Below are positions 4,837 to 9,141 of a stretch of DNA of 33,458 nucleotides, in pieces. The stretch's first letter is position 1; each line of letters opens with the position of its first letter. This DNA comes from Burkholderiaceae bacterium (GTDB lineage: Bacteria; Pseudomonadota; Gammaproteobacteria; Burkholderiales; Burkholderiaceae_E). The DNA lies in the NCBI GenBank assembly GCA_019635275.1, contig JAHBZV010000032.1, positions 1 through 33,458 on the forward strand, read 5' to 3'. The notes under the pieces were generated by a model, which did not search any database, was not told the origin of the DNA, and saw only the letters and a list, made by a program, of their open reading frames with translations. A program made the translations under genes and the position numbers.

Positions 4837-5430
4837 TCACGCGTCGCGCGCGGCCTCGAGGTAAGACACCAGCTTGGCGCTGGTCTGGCGCAGGCGCTCG
4901 GACAGCAGTTGCACCAGCTTCAGCAGGATCTTGTTGCCGAGCTTGGGCTCCTCGCCCAGGACGAGCATCAGCGCGTCGCGCGTGAGCACCGCGATCCGGC
5001 TGTTCTCGAGCGTGACGCACGACGCGAAGCGCGGCTCGCCGTCGAACATCGACATCTCGCCCAGCGAATGGCCCGAGTGCGCCACGGCGATCCGCGACGG
5101 ATAGTTGTAGCGGTTGCGGCGCAGCACGTCGACCATGCCCTGCATCAGCAGCATCATGAAGTCGCCGGCTTCGCCCTCGTTGATGATCGTGACCCCCGGG
5201 GGCGCCTCGTACACGTACATGAACGTGCCGAGCTTGCGCGTCTCGTCGATGTCCAGGCCCGAGAACAGCGGCGTCTGGGCCATCAGCCCGTGAATCTGGT
5301 CGGCGAACTCGCTGGCGCGCCCGACCGGGCGAAGGCCGAGCGCGAGCAGCCGCTCGTGCGGCGTGCGCTTGACCGAACCGGCCGCGGTCGCCGATGCCTG
5401 CGGCACGGCGGTGCCCTTGACCGCTTCCAT
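4837..5430 (-). CDS. Cyclic nucleotide-binding (Crp-like) domain protein without DNA-binding domain
   Basis: 197-residue protein with a single cNMP-binding fold at about residues 50-165. It shows LFSGLDIDETRKL, GVTIINEGEAGDFMMLLMQGMVDVL, then the phosphate-cassette region SLGEMSMFDGEPRFASCVT and IAVLTRDAL. In a true cNMP binder the cassette usually reads FGE-(A/L)-AL-x-x-x-x-R-(A/T)-A. Here it is LGEMSMFDGEPRFAS, keeping Glu and Arg, so ligand binding is possible but unproven. The remaining about 30 C-terminal residues look helical, with no helix-turn-helix, so it is not a Crp-type transcription factor. The start at 5430 has a strong site, GGGAGG, 5 nt upstream. The frame stays open upstream into the aroG antisense region, but nothing there looks coding. 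Confidence 0.8.
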   Translation of the reverse strand: MEAVKGTAVPQASATAAGSVKRTPHERLLALGLRPVGRASEFADQIHGLMAQTPLFSGLDIDETRKLGTFMYVYEAPPGVTIINEGEAGDFMMLLMQGMVDVLRRNRYNYPSRIAVAHSGHSLGEMSMFDGEPRFASCVTLENSRIAVLTRDALMLVLGEEPKLGNKILLKLVQLLSERLRQTSAKLVSYLEAARDA

Positions 5431-5452
5431 GGCTACCTCCCGATTTTCGACG

Positions 5453-5567: not shown

Positions 5568-6632
5568 CTACTCGTCCGCCTTCAGGCGCCGGGCGCGCAC
5601 GCCCTCGGCCAGCGCGTCGAGCACTGCGACCGTGTCGTCCCAGCCGATGCAGCCGTCGGTGATGCTCTGGCCGTAGACCAGCGGCTTGCCACGCACCAGG
5701 TCCTGGCGCCCCGCCTGCAGGTGGCTCTCGACCATCACGCCGAAGATGCGCATGTCGCCGGCGGCAAGCTGCGCGGCGATCGCCGACGTGACGGCCGTCT
5801 GGTTCTCGGGCTTCTTCTGGCTGTTGCCGTGGCTTGCGTCGATCATCAGCCGGCACGCCAGCGCGGCCGCGGCGGCCTCGTGGCAGGCGGCCTCGACGCT
5901 GGCCGCATCGTAGTTCGGCTTTCGGCCACCGCGAAGGATCACGTGGCAGTCCTCGTTGCCGTTGGTGGACACGATCGCCGAGTGCCCGCCCTTGGTGACC
6001 GACAGGAAATGATGCGGCTGCGAGGCGGCCTTGATCGCGTCGAGCGCGATCCTCAGGCTGCCGTCGGTGCCGTTCTTGAACCCGACCGGGCACGACAGCC
6101 CGGAGGCCAGTTCGCGGTGCACCTGCGATTCGGTGGTGCGTGCGCCGATCGCCCCCCATGCGATGAGGTCGGCGATGTACTGCGGCGTGATCATGTCGAG
6201 GAACTCGGTGCCCGCCGGCAGCCCCATCTCGTTGATGTCGAGCAGCAGCTCGCGCGCCGTGCGAAGGCCCTTGTTGATGTCGAAGCTGTCGTCGAGATCG
6301 GGATCGTTGATCAGGCCTTTCCAGCCGACGGTCGTGCGCGGCTTCTCGAAATAGACGCGCATCACGATCTCGAGGTCGGCCACCAGGCGCTCGCGCTCGC
6401 CGCGCAGCCGGCTCGCGTACTCGCGCGCCGCCTTCGTGTCGTGGATCGAGCACGGCCCGACGACGACGACCAGCCGGTCGTCCATGCCGTGCAACACGCG
6501 GTGGATCGCCTGGCGCGCGTCGAACGTGGTGGCGGCCGCGCGCTCGCTGATCGGGAACTCGCGCAGCAGGTGGGAGGGAGGCGCGAGCTCCTTGATCTCG
6601 CGGATTCGCAGGTCGTCGGTGGTGTGGGGCAT
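5568..6632 (-). CDS. aroG: 3-deoxy-7-phosphoheptulonate (DAHP) synthase, class I, AroG type
   Basis: 354-residue enzyme that condenses phosphoenolpyruvate and erythrose 4-phosphate, the committed first step of the shikimate pathway to Phe, Tyr and Trp. It follows E. coli AroG closely: DDLRIREIKEL at the N-terminus, VVGPCSIHD with metal ligand Cys61, MRVYFEKPRTTVGWKGLINDP, LDMITPQYIADL, GARTTESQVHRELASGLSCPVGF, then a metal-site His (ASHGN), Glu (MVESH) and Asp (ITDGCIGW). The region around SQVHRELASGLS matches the Phe-sensitive AroG form more than AroF as I recall them, suggesting Phe feedback. The ATG at 6632 has no strong ribosome site, but the family N-terminus fits. It lies 42 nt after a terminator preceded by a Phe/Tyr-rich leader peptide, so expression is probably attenuated by aromatic amino acids. 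Confidence 0.97.
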   Translation of the reverse strand: MPHTTDDLRIREIKELAPPSHLLREFPISERAAATTFDARQAIHRVLHGMDDRLVVVVGPCSIHDTKAAREYASRLRGERERLVADLEIVMRVYFEKPRTTVGWKGLINDPDLDDSFDINKGLRTARELLLDINEMGLPAGTEFLDMITPQYIADLIAWGAIGARTTESQVHRELASGLSCPVGFKNGTDGSLRIALDAIKAASQPHHFLSVTKGGHSAIVSTNGNEDCHVILRGGRKPNYDAASVEAACHEAAAAALACRLMIDASHGNSQKKPENQTAVTSAIAAQLAAGDMRIFGVMVESHLQAGRQDLVRGKPLVYGQSITDGCIGWDDTVAVLDALAEGVRARRLKADE

Positions 6633-6673
6633 GGCAGGCGGCGCTTTCTGGCAGTCGGGAAACGGGAAGAGGC

Positions 6674-6702
6674 AAAAAAAAACCGCCGGGCGGGGCCGGC
6701 GG
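6674..6702 (-). terminator. Rho-independent terminator (attenuator) upstream of aroG
   Basis: On the minus strand CCGCCGG (6696-6702), a 6-nt loop, and CCGGCGG (6683-6689) form a perfect 7-bp G/C stem, extended by G-U and A-U pairs and followed by nine T (6674-6682). The terminator lies between the leader peptide stop (6727) and the aroG ATG (6632), so it can only act as an attenuator of aroG. Its 5' arm is also exactly complementary to CCGGCGG at 6757-6763 inside the leader coding sequence (antiterminator). Confidence 0.88.
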
Positions 6703-6726
6703 CTTCATCGGATTCGGTTCGTTGCT

Positions 6727-6813
6727 TCAGGTCTGCGAACGCGCTCCCGACTCGTCCCGCCGGCGGCAGGAAAAGCCGAAGAAGTAAAAATAGAACGCGA
6801 CGCGGTGCAGCAT
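6727..6813 (-). CDS. Phe/Tyr-rich leader peptide of aroG (attenuator leader)
   Basis: A 28-codon open reading frame starts at ATG 6813 and stops with TGA at 6727-6729. Residues 7-14 are FYFYFFGF: five Phe and two Tyr in eight codons (6772-6795). Four of these use TTC, two TTT, one TAT and one TAC counting Phe and Tyr codons together with Gly excluded, unusually A/T-rich for this genome. The rest is Arg-rich (SCRRRDESGARSQT) and looks structural, encoding RNA segments. The start falls at the position where the promoter candidate would initiate. A ribosome stalled for charged tRNA-Phe or tRNA-Tyr would cover CCTGCC (6765-6770), freeing the next segment to block the terminator. Small leader genes like this are usually left unannotated. 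Confidence 0.85.
   Translation of the reverse strand: MLHRVAFYFYFFGFSCRRRDESGARSQT
6756..6770 (-). promoter_or_regulatory. Attenuator segments 1 and 2 (protector hairpin / antiterminator arm)
   Basis: Minus strand CCTGCC-GCC-GGCGGG folds locally into a 6-bp stem with one G-U pair (segments 1 and 2). The overlapping CCGGCGG (6757-6763) is a perfect complement of the terminator's 5' arm at 6696-6702 and is identical in sequence to its 3' arm at 6683-6689. Segment 2 can therefore pair with 1 or 3, and 3 with 2 or 4, the classic attenuation switch. It lies within codons 15-20 of the leader, directly after the Phe/Tyr run. Confidence 0.75.
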
Positions 6814-6819
6814 GAATCC

Positions 6820-6848
6820 AGTGTAAGGCCGGATCGCCGCCTCCGCAA
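6820..6848 (-). promoter_or_regulatory. Candidate sigma-70 promoter of the aroG leader
   Basis: Minus strand TTGCGG (6843-6848), 17-nt spacer, TACACT (6820-6825). The last base of the -10 is 7 nt before the A of the leader ATG at 6813, so initiation at the usual distance would make the leader peptide mRNA leaderless. Hexamers match consensus only partly (3/6 and 4/6). Confidence 0.5.
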
Positions 6849-6951
6849 GTCGGCCGCCCGGCGATGTGGCTTCGGCGTCGCGGACGGGTCGCGGGGCGCG
6901 GGGTCCCGCGGTTATCCTGCTGGCGATGAGCCGGCCGCCGAACCGGAACCC
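6849..6951. other. Divergent intergenic region between aroG leader and FUSC gene
   Basis: The sequence between the aroG leader promoter and the FUSC start shows one near-perfect palindrome, CGCGGG-GT-CCCGCG (6897-6910), immediately followed by TATCCT (6913-6918), a weak -10 candidate for the FUSC gene. The palindrome could be an operator. A nine-codon frame (ATG 6926) ends on the TGA overlapping the chosen FUSC GTG; I do not consider it a gene. Nothing else is evident. Confidence 0.35.
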
Positions 6952-9141
6952 GTGAGCGGGGCGACTGCAGCCGCCCTGCGGCGGCGCCTGCGTGGCCCGC
7001 CGGCGTACGTGCTGAACGGCATGGCGGTGGGCCTCGGCATCGCCGCGATCCAGCTCGTGTTCGCGCTGCTCTTCGACCGCCACGTGGCACAACTCGCCGT
7101 CGCGGGCGCGGTCTACGCCAGCCTCGCCGACCTGCCGATGCGCGTCGAGCGCTCGTGGCGCAACGTCCTCGCGGCGGGCGCCCTCGGCTGCGCCACGGCC
7201 CTCGCGCTCGGGCTGCTGCGCCCATGGCCCGCCGCATTCGCGCCCGGCATCGCCGCAATCGGCTTCGCGGCAGCGATGGCGATGGCCTGGGGGACGCGCG
7301 CCGGACCGATCTCGTTCGCGCCGATCCTGTCGATCGTCTTCACGATGGCGCAGCCCCCGCACCCCGATCACGTGCTCGCCGGACCGGCCTGGAACGCCGC
7401 GGGAGCGACGGCCTACCTGGCCTGGTCGATCGCGGCCTGCGCCGCGCTGCAGCGGCGCTACCGCAGTCTCGCGGTGGCTGCCGCGCTCGAAGCGACCGCC
7501 CGGCTGATGCGCTCTCGCGCCGACGCGCTGGAGCAGCCCGGGGGCGCCGACGCGGACGTTCGGGCGCTACGAACCTGGATCGGCGACGAAGCGCAGCTCG
7601 CCGAGCGATTGCAGGCGGCACGCGACCTGCTCTTCGCCGCGCCGGACACGGCACGCGTGCGCCGCGAGACGGCGATCCTGCTGCGCACGATCGACCTGCG
7701 CGACATCCTGGCCGCCAGCCGGCTCGACGTCGACCTGCTGGGCGACGATGCGCCGGGACGCGCGGTCCGCCAGGCGCTGGCGAACGGGCTGCGCCGGATC
7801 GGCGCCGCGCTCGAGCTCGCCGACGAAGCGATGCGCCGCGGCACCGCGACGTCGCCGTTCGCGTCCCCGGACCCGCCTGCGGTTCGACCTTTCGAGGACG
7901 TGCCGTTCGAGCCGGGCGATCCGCGGCGGCGTCTGTTGCCGGCGCTCGCCGGCCGGCTCGCGCTTCTCGAGGGCGACGTCGAGCGGATTGGCGCGCTGCT
8001 CGGCGGCGAAGCGCGGGCACAGGACACCTCGCTGTCGCGCACGCAGCTCGGCCTGTTCGTGGCGCCGGAGCGCTGGCCGCTGAACGCGCTGCGCGCGAAC
8101 GTCTCGCGGCGATCACCGGTCTTCCGTCACGCGGTGCGCACGGGCCTGGCGCTCGGGACTGCGTACCTGATCGGGTTGGCCTTGCCGTGGGCCGCCCACC
8201 CGTACTGGCTCGTGCTCAGCGTGGCCGTGGTGTTGCGCGGCAACCTGGAGCAGACGCTGTCGCGGCGCAACGCGCGTGTGCTCGGCACGGTGCTCGGCTG
8301 CCTGCTGGTGCTGGCGCTCGCGCGGCTGCAGTCGCCGACGTTGCTGGCCGGCGTGTTCCCCGTCTCGGCGGGCGTCGCGCACGCCTTCGTCGGGGTGCAG
8401 TATCTCGTGACCGCCGCAGCGGGCACGGTCACGGCGCTGCTGCAGGCGCATCTGCTGGATCCGGCGAGCGGGTTCGCGATCGTCGAGCGGCTCGCCGACA
8501 CCCTGCTCGGCGCGCTGCTCGCGTGGGGCTTCAGCTACGTGCTGCCGTCCTGGGAGCGGCGCGCGCTGCCACAGGCGATCGAACGCGCGATGCAGGCGCT
8601 GCGCGAGTACGCCGCGCACTCGCTGAGCTGCGACGCCGACGCGGCGCTCGCGCAGCGGCTGGCGCGACGCAGTGCCTACGACGCGCTGGGGGCGATCGCC
8701 GGGGCCGTCAAGCGCAGCGCCTTCGAGCCGCCGGCGGTGCGTCCGCCGGTGCACGAGCTGACCGTGCTGCTCGATCATGGACAGCGGCTGATGGCGCACC
8801 TGTCGATGATCCGCCTGATGCGGGCGAACGGCGGCGCAGCGCTGCACAGCCCCGAGGCGATCGGCGCGCTGCACGCGGCCGCTCGCGCGCTGCAGGCATC
8901 GCTCGGGGCGGGCGCGCCCGTCGCCGCCGGTCCCGATGCACCGGGCATGCCGGGCACGCCAGGACTCGCGCTGCTGCCGGCCGAACCGCCGGCCGATGAC
9001 CTGCTGCCCTGGCTGCTTCGGCGGCTCACCGTGGCCGCGGCCGAGGGGCCGGCCATCGCGCGCGCGGCCCATGCCGCGCTCGCGGCACTGGGCAATTCGC
9101 GAACGATGGGTTACAAGGCGGCATCGGGAGGAACACGATGA
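6952..9141 (+). CDS. FUSC-family membrane protein (AaeB/YccS-like)
   Basis: About 729 residues with the FUSC layout: an N-terminal block of membrane helices (from NGMAVGLGIAAIQLVFALLF to about residue 170), a soluble helical middle (about 170-380), and a second membrane block starting FRHAVRTGLALGTAYLIGLALPWAAHPYWLVLSVAVVLRGN. The stretch PYWLVLSVAVVLRGNLEQTLSRRNARVLGTVLGCLL is the recognisable fusaric-acid-resistance signature (the T-RxxxRxxGTxxG pattern). FUSC members are efflux components for aromatic acids, or envelope proteins of unknown role; substrate is not readable here. I took GTG 6952, preceded by GGAA; the frame is open further upstream, so the start is uncertain. Its stop overlaps the next gene's ATG (ATGA). 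Confidence 0.82.
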   Translation: MSGATAAALRRRLRGPPAYVLNGMAVGLGIAAIQLVFALLFDRHVAQLAVAGAVYASLADLPMRVERSWRNVLAAGALGCATALALGLLRPWPAAFAPGIAAIGFAAAMAMAWGTRAGPISFAPILSIVFTMAQPPHPDHVLAGPAWNAAGATAYLAWSIAACAALQRRYRSLAVAAALEATARLMRSRADALEQPGGADADVRALRTWIGDEAQLAERLQAARDLLFAAPDTARVRRETAILLRTIDLRDILAASRLDVDLLGDDAPGRAVRQALANGLRRIGAALELADEAMRRGTATSPFASPDPPAVRPFEDVPFEPGDPRRRLLPALAGRLALLEGDVERIGALLGGEARAQDTSLSRTQLGLFVAPERWPLNALRANVSRRSPVFRHAVRTGLALGTAYLIGLALPWAAHPYWLVLSVAVVLRGNLEQTLSRRNARVLGTVLGCLLVLALARLQSPTLLAGVFPVSAGVAHAFVGVQYLVTAAAGTVTALLQAHLLDPASGFAIVERLADTLLGALLAWGFSYVLPSWERRALPQAIERAMQALREYAAHSLSCDADAALAQRLARRSAYDALGAIAGAVKRSAFEPPAVRPPVHELTVLLDHGQRLMAHLSMIRLMRANGGAALHSPEAIGALHAAARALQASLGAGAPVAAGPDAPGMPGTPGLALLPAEPPADDLLPWLLRRLTVAAAEGPAIARAAHAALAALGNSRTMGYKAASGGTR

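Follow-up and report, generated by a model that had tools for sequence, protein, structure and literature searches.

The window, by which we mean the whole 33,458-base stretch of DNA that was analysed (72% GC), carries a gene for DAHP synthase, aroG, on its minus strand (Table 1). The product scores 577.7 bits against the NCBIfam model NF006723, whose cut-off is 568, and 537 bits against TIGR00034. Directly 3′ of aroG, and possibly co-transcribed with it, is a minus-strand frame for a Crp/cyclic-nucleotide-binding-like protein (positions 4837-5439; matches below cut-offs). A divergent plus-strand frame (positions 6436-9141) resembles YccS/YhfK transporters at a score below the family cut-off and has its upstream region in common with the aroG leader.

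Table 1. Coordinates of aroG and of the proposed elements of its leader in the window.
Feature	Positions	Strand	Basis or remark
aroG, DAHP synthase, 354 aa, proposed controlled gene	5568..6632	minus	NF006723, TIGR00034
U run of intrinsic terminator, nine T	6674..6682	minus	sequence; sole run of at least nine T/A in window
Segment 4, CCGGCGG, terminator 3′ arm	6683..6689	minus	sequence and terminator scan
Segment 3, CCGCCGG, antiterminator 3′ side or terminator 5′ arm	6696..6702	minus	sequence and pairing comparison
Segment 3′, extra antiterminator 3′ strands (CGAACCG, UCCGAU)	6707..6721	minus	fold and alignment
Leader frame, MLHRVAFYFYFFGFSCRRRDESGARSQT then stop, 28 codons	6727..6813	minus	sequence and translation
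Segment 2′, extra antiterminator 5′ strands (GUCGGG, CG, GUUCG)	6736..6751	minus	fold of masked leader
Segment 2, CCGGCGG, partner of segment 1 or segment 3	6757..6763	minus	sequence and pairing comparison
Segment 1, 5′ side of 1:2 hairpin (outer 6782-6773 bulged, inner 6771-6765), overlaps last control codons	6765..6782	minus	fold
Control codons FYFYFFGF, F7-F14 (TTC TAT TTT TAC TTC TTC GGC TTT)	6772..6795	minus	sequence; shuffles; conserved spacing to segment 2
-10-like hexamer TACACT, 6 bases 5′ of leader ATG	6820..6825	minus	sequence and promoter-like scoring
-35-like hexamer TTGCGG	6843..6848	minus	17-base spacer to -10-like hexamer; similar layout in own-genus loci

A sequence-only reading of the window had described this region as an attenuator, and the parts it listed are all in place on the minus strand. 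The 28-codon frame with its FYFYFFGF run is present base for base, and direct reading places its ATG at 6813-6811 and its TGA stop codon at 6729-6727. The stretch CCTGCC-GCC-GGCGGG, said to be able to form a hairpin between segments 1 and 2, is found at 6770-6756. Segment 2 was also claimed to be exactly complementary to the 5′ arm of the terminator, which it is; segments 2 and 4 are identical in sequence. The terminator 3′ arm runs into nine T as described, and aroG follows with its ATG at 6632, 41 bases past the T run. Both hallmarks of the leader are rare in this DNA. Six or more Phe or Tyr residues within eight occur at a single place in the six frames of the window, a run of at least nine T or A likewise occurs once, and neither appears in any of 60 dinucleotide shuffles of the window. 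A terminator scan called one terminator, versus 0.6 expected in shuffles of the same region.

We then compared the regions upstream of aroG in other genomes. An AroG match was present in 164 of 200 related genomes, and 80 named loci, the best 80 of their search, were added. Among 170 loci, 169 include the AroG N terminus (L162 is without it), and 166 distinct upstream regions were left when three duplicates had been dropped. With a threshold of at least five F, Y or W in eight residues, an aromatic-rich frame is present in 107 of the 166 regions (59 fall below the threshold), and a terminator was called in 105 of these 107. Both parts therefore occur together in 105 regions, the frame alone in 2, the terminator alone in 15 and neither in 44. 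The terminator lies downstream of the aromatic run in 102 of the 105 two-part loci and upstream of it in three. For position-by-position comparison we used an anchored set of 87 loci, obtained from the 166 by loss of the 59 frameless and two terminatorless regions, the three with the terminator upstream, six without CCGCC/GGCGG arms and nine without GGCGG in segment 2. Two loci (L007 and L016) are truncated at contig ends.

Within the best 80 named loci, the frame is present in all six from Bradyrhizobium and all eight from Xanthomonadales, and also in loci from Burkholderia, Paraburkholderia, Caballeronia, Cupriavidus (for example L048, from a relative of the laboratory strains), Bordetella and several Oxalobacteraceae. 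Quisquiliibacterium transsilvanicum DSM 29781 (L015/L033), which belongs to the family of the window, has both frame and terminator, with GGTGG in its segment 2. None of the three enteric loci (Pantoea, Dickeya and Pectobacterium) and none of the six Rhodocyclus/Thauera/Azoarcus-type loci in that set has it. The AroG proteins of Bradyrhizobium and Xanthomonadales (L085-L094, L081-L109) are 68-73% identical to that of the window over the best segment, and their genes have the same type of leader. This sharing raises the question of whether the leader is an ancient inheritance or has been transferred together with the gene.

The leader frame is probably leaderless. Because the -10-like hexamer ends 6 bases before the ATG, transcription is predicted to start at or beside the A of this codon. 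A promoter-like score of at least 9 is reached in 55 of the 87 anchored loci, and the distance from the end of the -10-like box to the ATG is 6-10 bases in 36 of these, 11-20 bases in none and more than 20 bases in 19. Shine-Dalgarno matches of four bases occur in two of the 87 loci and matches of three bases in 24. A stricter consensus promoter scan of positions 6600-7000 found no promoter, and for this reason we only infer the leaderless start.

The placement of the aromatic codons is informative about function. Frames had been picked for aromatic density, and the search for segment 2 began 12 bases downstream of the first base of the run, so that density is no evidence here and only position relative to segment 2 counts. 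The codon that ends 15-17 bases before segment 2 is aromatic in 82 of the 87 loci, which is the peak, and the codon immediately 5′ of segment 2 is aromatic in none. Codons over segment 2 itself include no Phe or Tyr, and six for Trp, from TGG within TGGCGG. A ribosome reaches about 10-11 bases past its A-site codon, and one that held the peak aromatic codon in its A site would, with this footprint, leave segment 2 free. Across the 87 loci, the control codons are thus placed as in an attenuator, where a stalled ribosome has to free segment 2.

The leader peptide of the window contains no Trp. Counted anywhere in the peptide, Phe is present in all 87 anchored leaders, Tyr in 82 and Trp in 55. 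Since 55 of these orthologous leaders include Trp, the signal that is sensed may be the supply of aromatic amino acids in general, not Phe and Tyr alone.

Codon-level constraint is visible among 12 leaders of the window's own genus. Of 187 codon differences between pairs of these leaders in the control region, 155 are silent or swap F, Y and W for one another, and where the distance from the ATG to segment 2 differs, it does so by complete codons. Beyond the control codons, the RNA and not the peptide appears to be kept, because the segment 2 RNA is read in all three frames among the 87 loci (18, 21 and 48), and the peptides encoded over the same core RNA are accordingly RRRDESGARS, PAGGLSRERVRS and PLADREG/PLAEEG.

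These data bear on a different explanation, that the leader peptide itself arrests the ribosome in response to a free aromatic amino acid and not to uncharged tRNA. TnaC is a case of such peptide stalling, with Trp. In favour of nascent-peptide arrest, the aromatic run is strongly conserved, and the tail is near RRRDESGARSQT in eight of the 12 own-genus leaders. However, no tail peptide is kept across the three reading frames, the leaders differ in how many F, Y and W they have and in what sequence, with insertions and deletions of whole codons, and high aromatic amino acid concentrations would have to switch a biosynthetic gene on, which is the wrong direction. We therefore consider peptide arrest highly improbable.

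The second line of evidence for an attenuator comes from the two pairings in which segment 3 can take part. In 39 aligned sequences of the window's family, standard pairs fill 96.7% of the cells of the 2:3 helix, versus 16-57% when the partners are slid, and 99.3% of the cells of the 3:4 helix, versus 15-52%. One segment 3 column holds G or A, and the bases that it faces in segments 2 and 4, C or U in each case, vary with it. Specifically, the 2:3 pair (columns 33/103) is CG in 23 sequences, UA in 11, UG in three and broken in two, and the 3:4 pair (columns 103/117) is GC in 26 and AU in 13. At the key position, the 87 anchored loci have a standard 2:3 pair in 72 cases and a standard 3:4 pair in every case, and none of 2000 shuffles reaches either value. 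The three-way states of these loci include CC/GG/CC (17 loci), CT/AG/CT (35), GA/TC/GA (1) and AA/TC/GA (1), with 22 states overall. The outer 2:3 position is weaker, being paired in 68 of the 87 loci, a value reached by 70 of 2000 shuffles, and broken in seven of the 39 own-family rows.

The counts of joint change are inflated because the loci are related. An AroG tree of 75 loci shows four changes of segment 3, and three supported independent pairs gave, on average, 1.8 that agree, none that oppose and 1.2 without a difference; starting from segment 2, five pairs gave 1.8 that agree and 3.2 without a difference. Tree-aware covariation is in the right direction, with too few events for significance. 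When segment 3 was matched to the leader tail in an unanchored duplex test, 77 of 102 loci paired better than dinucleotide shuffles at p ≤ 0.05, and 39 did so at p ≤ 0.01. The window itself gave p = 0.03, and seven of 15 own-genus loci (L003, L006 and L009-L013) missed p ≤ 0.05. Terminator and antiterminator are mutually exclusive and change jointly, as they should in an attenuator, and the independent events are few.

The antiterminator of the window extends beyond the seven pairs of segments 2 and 3. When the masked leader (see below) is folded, positions 6751-6736 form helices with 6721-6707, so that the strands GCCGGCGG, GUCGGG, CG and GUUCG are predicted to pair with CCGCCGGC, UCCGAU and CGAACCG. 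In 11 distinct sequences, 95.2% of the cells of the extended antiterminator are paired, against 16-43% with slid partners; for segment 2′ the value is 98.6%, and no pair has a double change. Among 13 aligned leaders the extended strands hardly vary, which leaves no covariation available for these helices; the loop at the apex differs both in its sequence and in its length. A long antiterminator would account for the conserved nucleotides of the tail. Outside the genus, the extension is only suggestive: of the 87 loci, 55 have antiterminator flanks that pair better than with a random partner, 25 exceed shuffles at p ≤ 0.05 and two do so at p ≤ 0.01. Consensus folds made for each lineage all contain some second helix, with few double changes.

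The remaining helix, between segments 1 and 2, is longer in the window than first noticed, with an outer helix that pairs 6782-6773 with 6753-6745 in the local fold. The 5′ strand of this outer helix is formed by the last control codons, and GUCGGG of segment 2′ also lies within its 3′ side. The local minimum free energy is -23.3 kcal/mol (z -1.61). The 1:2 hairpin is strong in the lineage of the window and weak in Burkholderia and Bordetella. Segment 2 pairs upstream in 67 of the 87 loci, and the mean z is only -0.54. A consensus fold of 49 rows from the family retained only two 1:2 pairs and no covariation, and a seven-row subset gave 17, without any double change.

In the window, the stop codon lies nine codons past segment 2, and the sequence-only reading had cautioned that the unstalled case would then depend on formation of the 1:2 hairpin and on 3:4 winning kinetically. 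Part of this concern is relieved by the greater length of the hairpin and by the finding that loci with a distant stop codon have a more stable local hairpin. The distance of the stop codon from segment 2 correlates with local hairpin energy at a Spearman coefficient of -0.61 (85 of the 87 loci, two frames with a very distant stop codon being omitted; kinship is ignored), and the mean energies are -10.1 kcal/mol for the 20 loci with a near stop codon and -15.2 kcal/mol for the 65 with a far one. We infer that a terminating ribosome covers segment 2 where the stop codon is near, and that a re-formed 1:2 hairpin takes this role where it is far. Lineage and base composition could also be sources of the correlation.

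To calculate the switch, we folded the 87 leaders either free or with everything up to 3 bases 5′ of segment 2 masked. Before segment 4 exists, the mean probability of the 2:3 helix is 0.59 in free and 0.93 in masked leaders, and masking raises it in 85 of the 87. At full length, free leaders have mean probabilities of 0.93 for 3:4 and 0.02 for 2:3; in masked leaders the means are 0.73 and 0.20, and the values for the window are 0.01 and 0.60. On average, masked full-length leaders hence prefer 3:4 at equilibrium, and antitermination in those loci must be kinetic. The leader of the window already prefers 2:3 (0.85) before segment 4 exists and with no ribosome present, which implies that termination there needs a moving ribosome or kinetics.

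The specificity of the element was assessed with a covariance model built from 39 own-family leaders (39 of the 49 own-family rows aligned). The only match of this model in the genome of the window is the element itself. At E ≤ 0.01 the model matches 135 of the 200 genomes at least once, often only in part and at a terminator. Full-length matches at E ≤ 1e-8 number 87, and by hand count 83 of these lie just upstream of an AroG homologue. The other four comprise two that are cut before the gene by contig ends (G024 and G053) and two that lie elsewhere (G041:C58 and G116). At this threshold, and again by hand count, a match beside aroG or cut by a contig end is present in all 18 genomes of the own genus, in 61 of the 74 from the family and in 23 of 126 further genomes of the order; sensitivity is low outside the family because the model was trained on the family. 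Conservation in close relatives, on which the sequence-only reading had made itself dependent, was borne out for the frame and the pairing arms alike: all 18 own-genus genomes match the model at E ≤ 1e-21, and frame and arms recur beyond the genus in many Burkholderiales, in Xanthomonadales and in Bradyrhizobium. In positions 6400-7100 of the window, Rfam returned no family at its gathering score. At E ≤ 10 there were five weak, unrelated matches, with no amino-acid leader among them, and the Phe_leader model was not listed.

Thirteen of the full-length matches listed lie away from aroG. Twelve were inspected (all but that in G155), and 11 of these look like plain terminators and have no such aromatic frame. 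The remaining one (G009:C7) is upstream of another AroG gene with a leader of its own. This locus (L240), from the same genus as the window, encodes a further AroG homologue that is 69% identical over the available part; its leader peptide ends in MSRFTLFFAYFWFSRRPGAGEDSA followed by a stop codon, includes Trp and is accompanied by a terminator. The element thus appears to travel with, or to have arisen on, an aroG paralogue.

Such terminators are common, and the fact that the model also matches plain ones elsewhere in the relatives could mean that the terminator of the window merely closes an upstream transcript, with an aromatic frame present by chance and no attenuation. The neighbouring upstream frame is on the other strand, however (YccS/YhfK-like, below cut-off). 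Moreover, frame and terminator co-occur (105 regions with both, two with the frame only) and neither arose in the 60 shuffles, and the leader shows codon-level constraint. A chance association is extremely improbable.

The genome of the window encodes a second AroG (L170, G000:C79), 62% identical to the first, and the 330 bases upstream of its gene contain neither an aromatic frame nor a terminator. If the leader is an attenuator, the two isoenzymes would consequently be controlled differently. In the trpE region of the same genome (L171:1213-1290), a frame encoding MRPVQEMQSARNANGWRAWRWWCWR and a stop codon has clustered Trp codons and is located some 135 bases upstream of the probable trpE start codon, making it a candidate trp leader. 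The scanned stretch has no run of five or more T, and the candidate is therefore not an ordinary intrinsic-terminator attenuator. A simple scan of the pheA (L172) and ilvB (L173) regions of this genome detected no comparable leader.

The proposal that aroG is subject to ribosome-mediated attenuation is supported by the comparison, through conservation, joint changes of the 2:3 and 3:4 pairs, codon spacing, association with aroG and the switch as calculated. We consider it very likely that the leader is a ribosome-mediated transcription attenuator by which the supply of Phe and Tyr controls aroG. RNA polymerase would start at or beside the leader ATG, with a ribosome trailing on the Phe/Tyr frame. 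A shortage of charged tRNA-Phe or tRNA-Tyr would make the ribosome stall within FYFYFFGF, and a stall at the later control codons would cover segment 1 and leave segment 2 free. Segments 2 and 2′ could then pair with segments 3′ and 3 to form the long antiterminator, which would block the 3:4 helix and allow aroG to be transcribed. With a good supply, the ribosome would run past segment 2 to the stop codon, and segments 1 and 2 would re-pair behind it. A ribosome between segments 2 and 3 would permit 3:4 to form, and transcription would end near position 6675 to give an RNA of about 140 nt.

The probable leaderless start also invites the idea that the leader mainly affects aroG translation or Rho access, or that the terminated RNA (about 140 nt) has targets in trans, as Sinorhizobium rnTrpL does, with attenuation secondary; like the S. 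meliloti trp leader as described in the available text of PMC10117765, this leader would set free a small RNA. Both the nine-U intrinsic terminator and the presence of two conserved pairings that exclude each other indicate control at transcription instead, and we regard a chiefly translational or trans-acting role as very unlikely.

In E. coli, aroG is repressed by TyrR, which is the familiar mode of control for this gene. Vitreschak and colleagues reportedly surveyed the attenuators of Proteobacteria in 2004. Among the literature matches listed, we found no leader-peptide attenuator of aroG in Proteobacteria, and the word aroG is absent from the main text of PMC2965389. In the available parts of other sources, attenuators have been predicted near tyrA operons, including that of Bordetella parapertussis (PMC1173090), TyrR control of aroG has been predicted in Vibrionales (PMC5343134) and a Leu/phe leader of Lactococcus has been tabulated (PMC2864571). 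What may be new here is the aroG target, the breadth, the probable leaderless start and the reading of several amino acids.

On balance, we lean slightly towards the broader view that these leaders belong to one family of leaderless attenuators, widespread and so far undescribed, by which aromatic amino acids act on aroG in Beta-, Gamma- (Xanthomonadales) and Alphaproteobacteria (Bradyrhizobium and Devosia). Such leaders would read Phe, Tyr and, in many lineages, Trp, and would thereby respond to the combined supply of the three end products to which the AroG reaction leads. The antiterminator would comprise about 21 pairs in the lineage of the window, and the RNA core would be constant while the peptide shifts among three frames. 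If attenuation of aroG is borne out, the charging of aromatic tRNAs would govern how much carbon enters shikimate synthesis in many Burkholderiales and in Xanthomonadales and Bradyrhizobium, and the leaders would represent an RNA family without an Rfam match and a clear case of selection on RNA rather than on a leader peptide. Natural variants, with or without Trp, with near or far stop codons and with strong or weak 1:2 hairpins, would be usable for testing models of attenuation.

The E. coli pheA (pheL) and trp attenuators combine control codons, alternative hairpins and an intrinsic terminator, and are represented by Phe and Trp leader families in Rfam. Their mechanism is the same as that proposed for the window, but the gene is different, and the present leader matches no amino-acid leader of Rfam. 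The attenuator mechanism is already known, and attenuators ahead of genes for DAHP synthase have been published for Corynebacterium (PMC4046766) and Acholeplasma (PMC8632094). In Corynebacterium glutamicum, a putative Phe-Tyr-Phe leader likewise precedes a DAHP synthase gene, aroF, and an attenuator transcript was seen by RNA-seq (PMC4046766). That leader is actinobacterial and, by its published description, has a shorter aromatic run than the window's. The Acholeplasma uORFC-13-1 is likewise a predicted Phe-coding uORF beside an intrinsic terminator and before a DAHP synthase gene (aroF), but it is described with a ribosome-binding site and at least one Phe codon, and is reported only from Acholeplasma and unassigned environmental sequences (PMC8632094). 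Two candidate uORFs of shikimate genes also code for Phe and Tyr, from a search of five genomes with no betaproteobacterium among them (PMC6429828, as far as its available text describes). Finally, trpL/rnTrpL of Sinorhizobium meliloti attenuates aromatic amino acid synthesis with a frame that is leaderless, as is probable in the window, but it acts on trpE and has described functions in trans (PMC10117765, available text).
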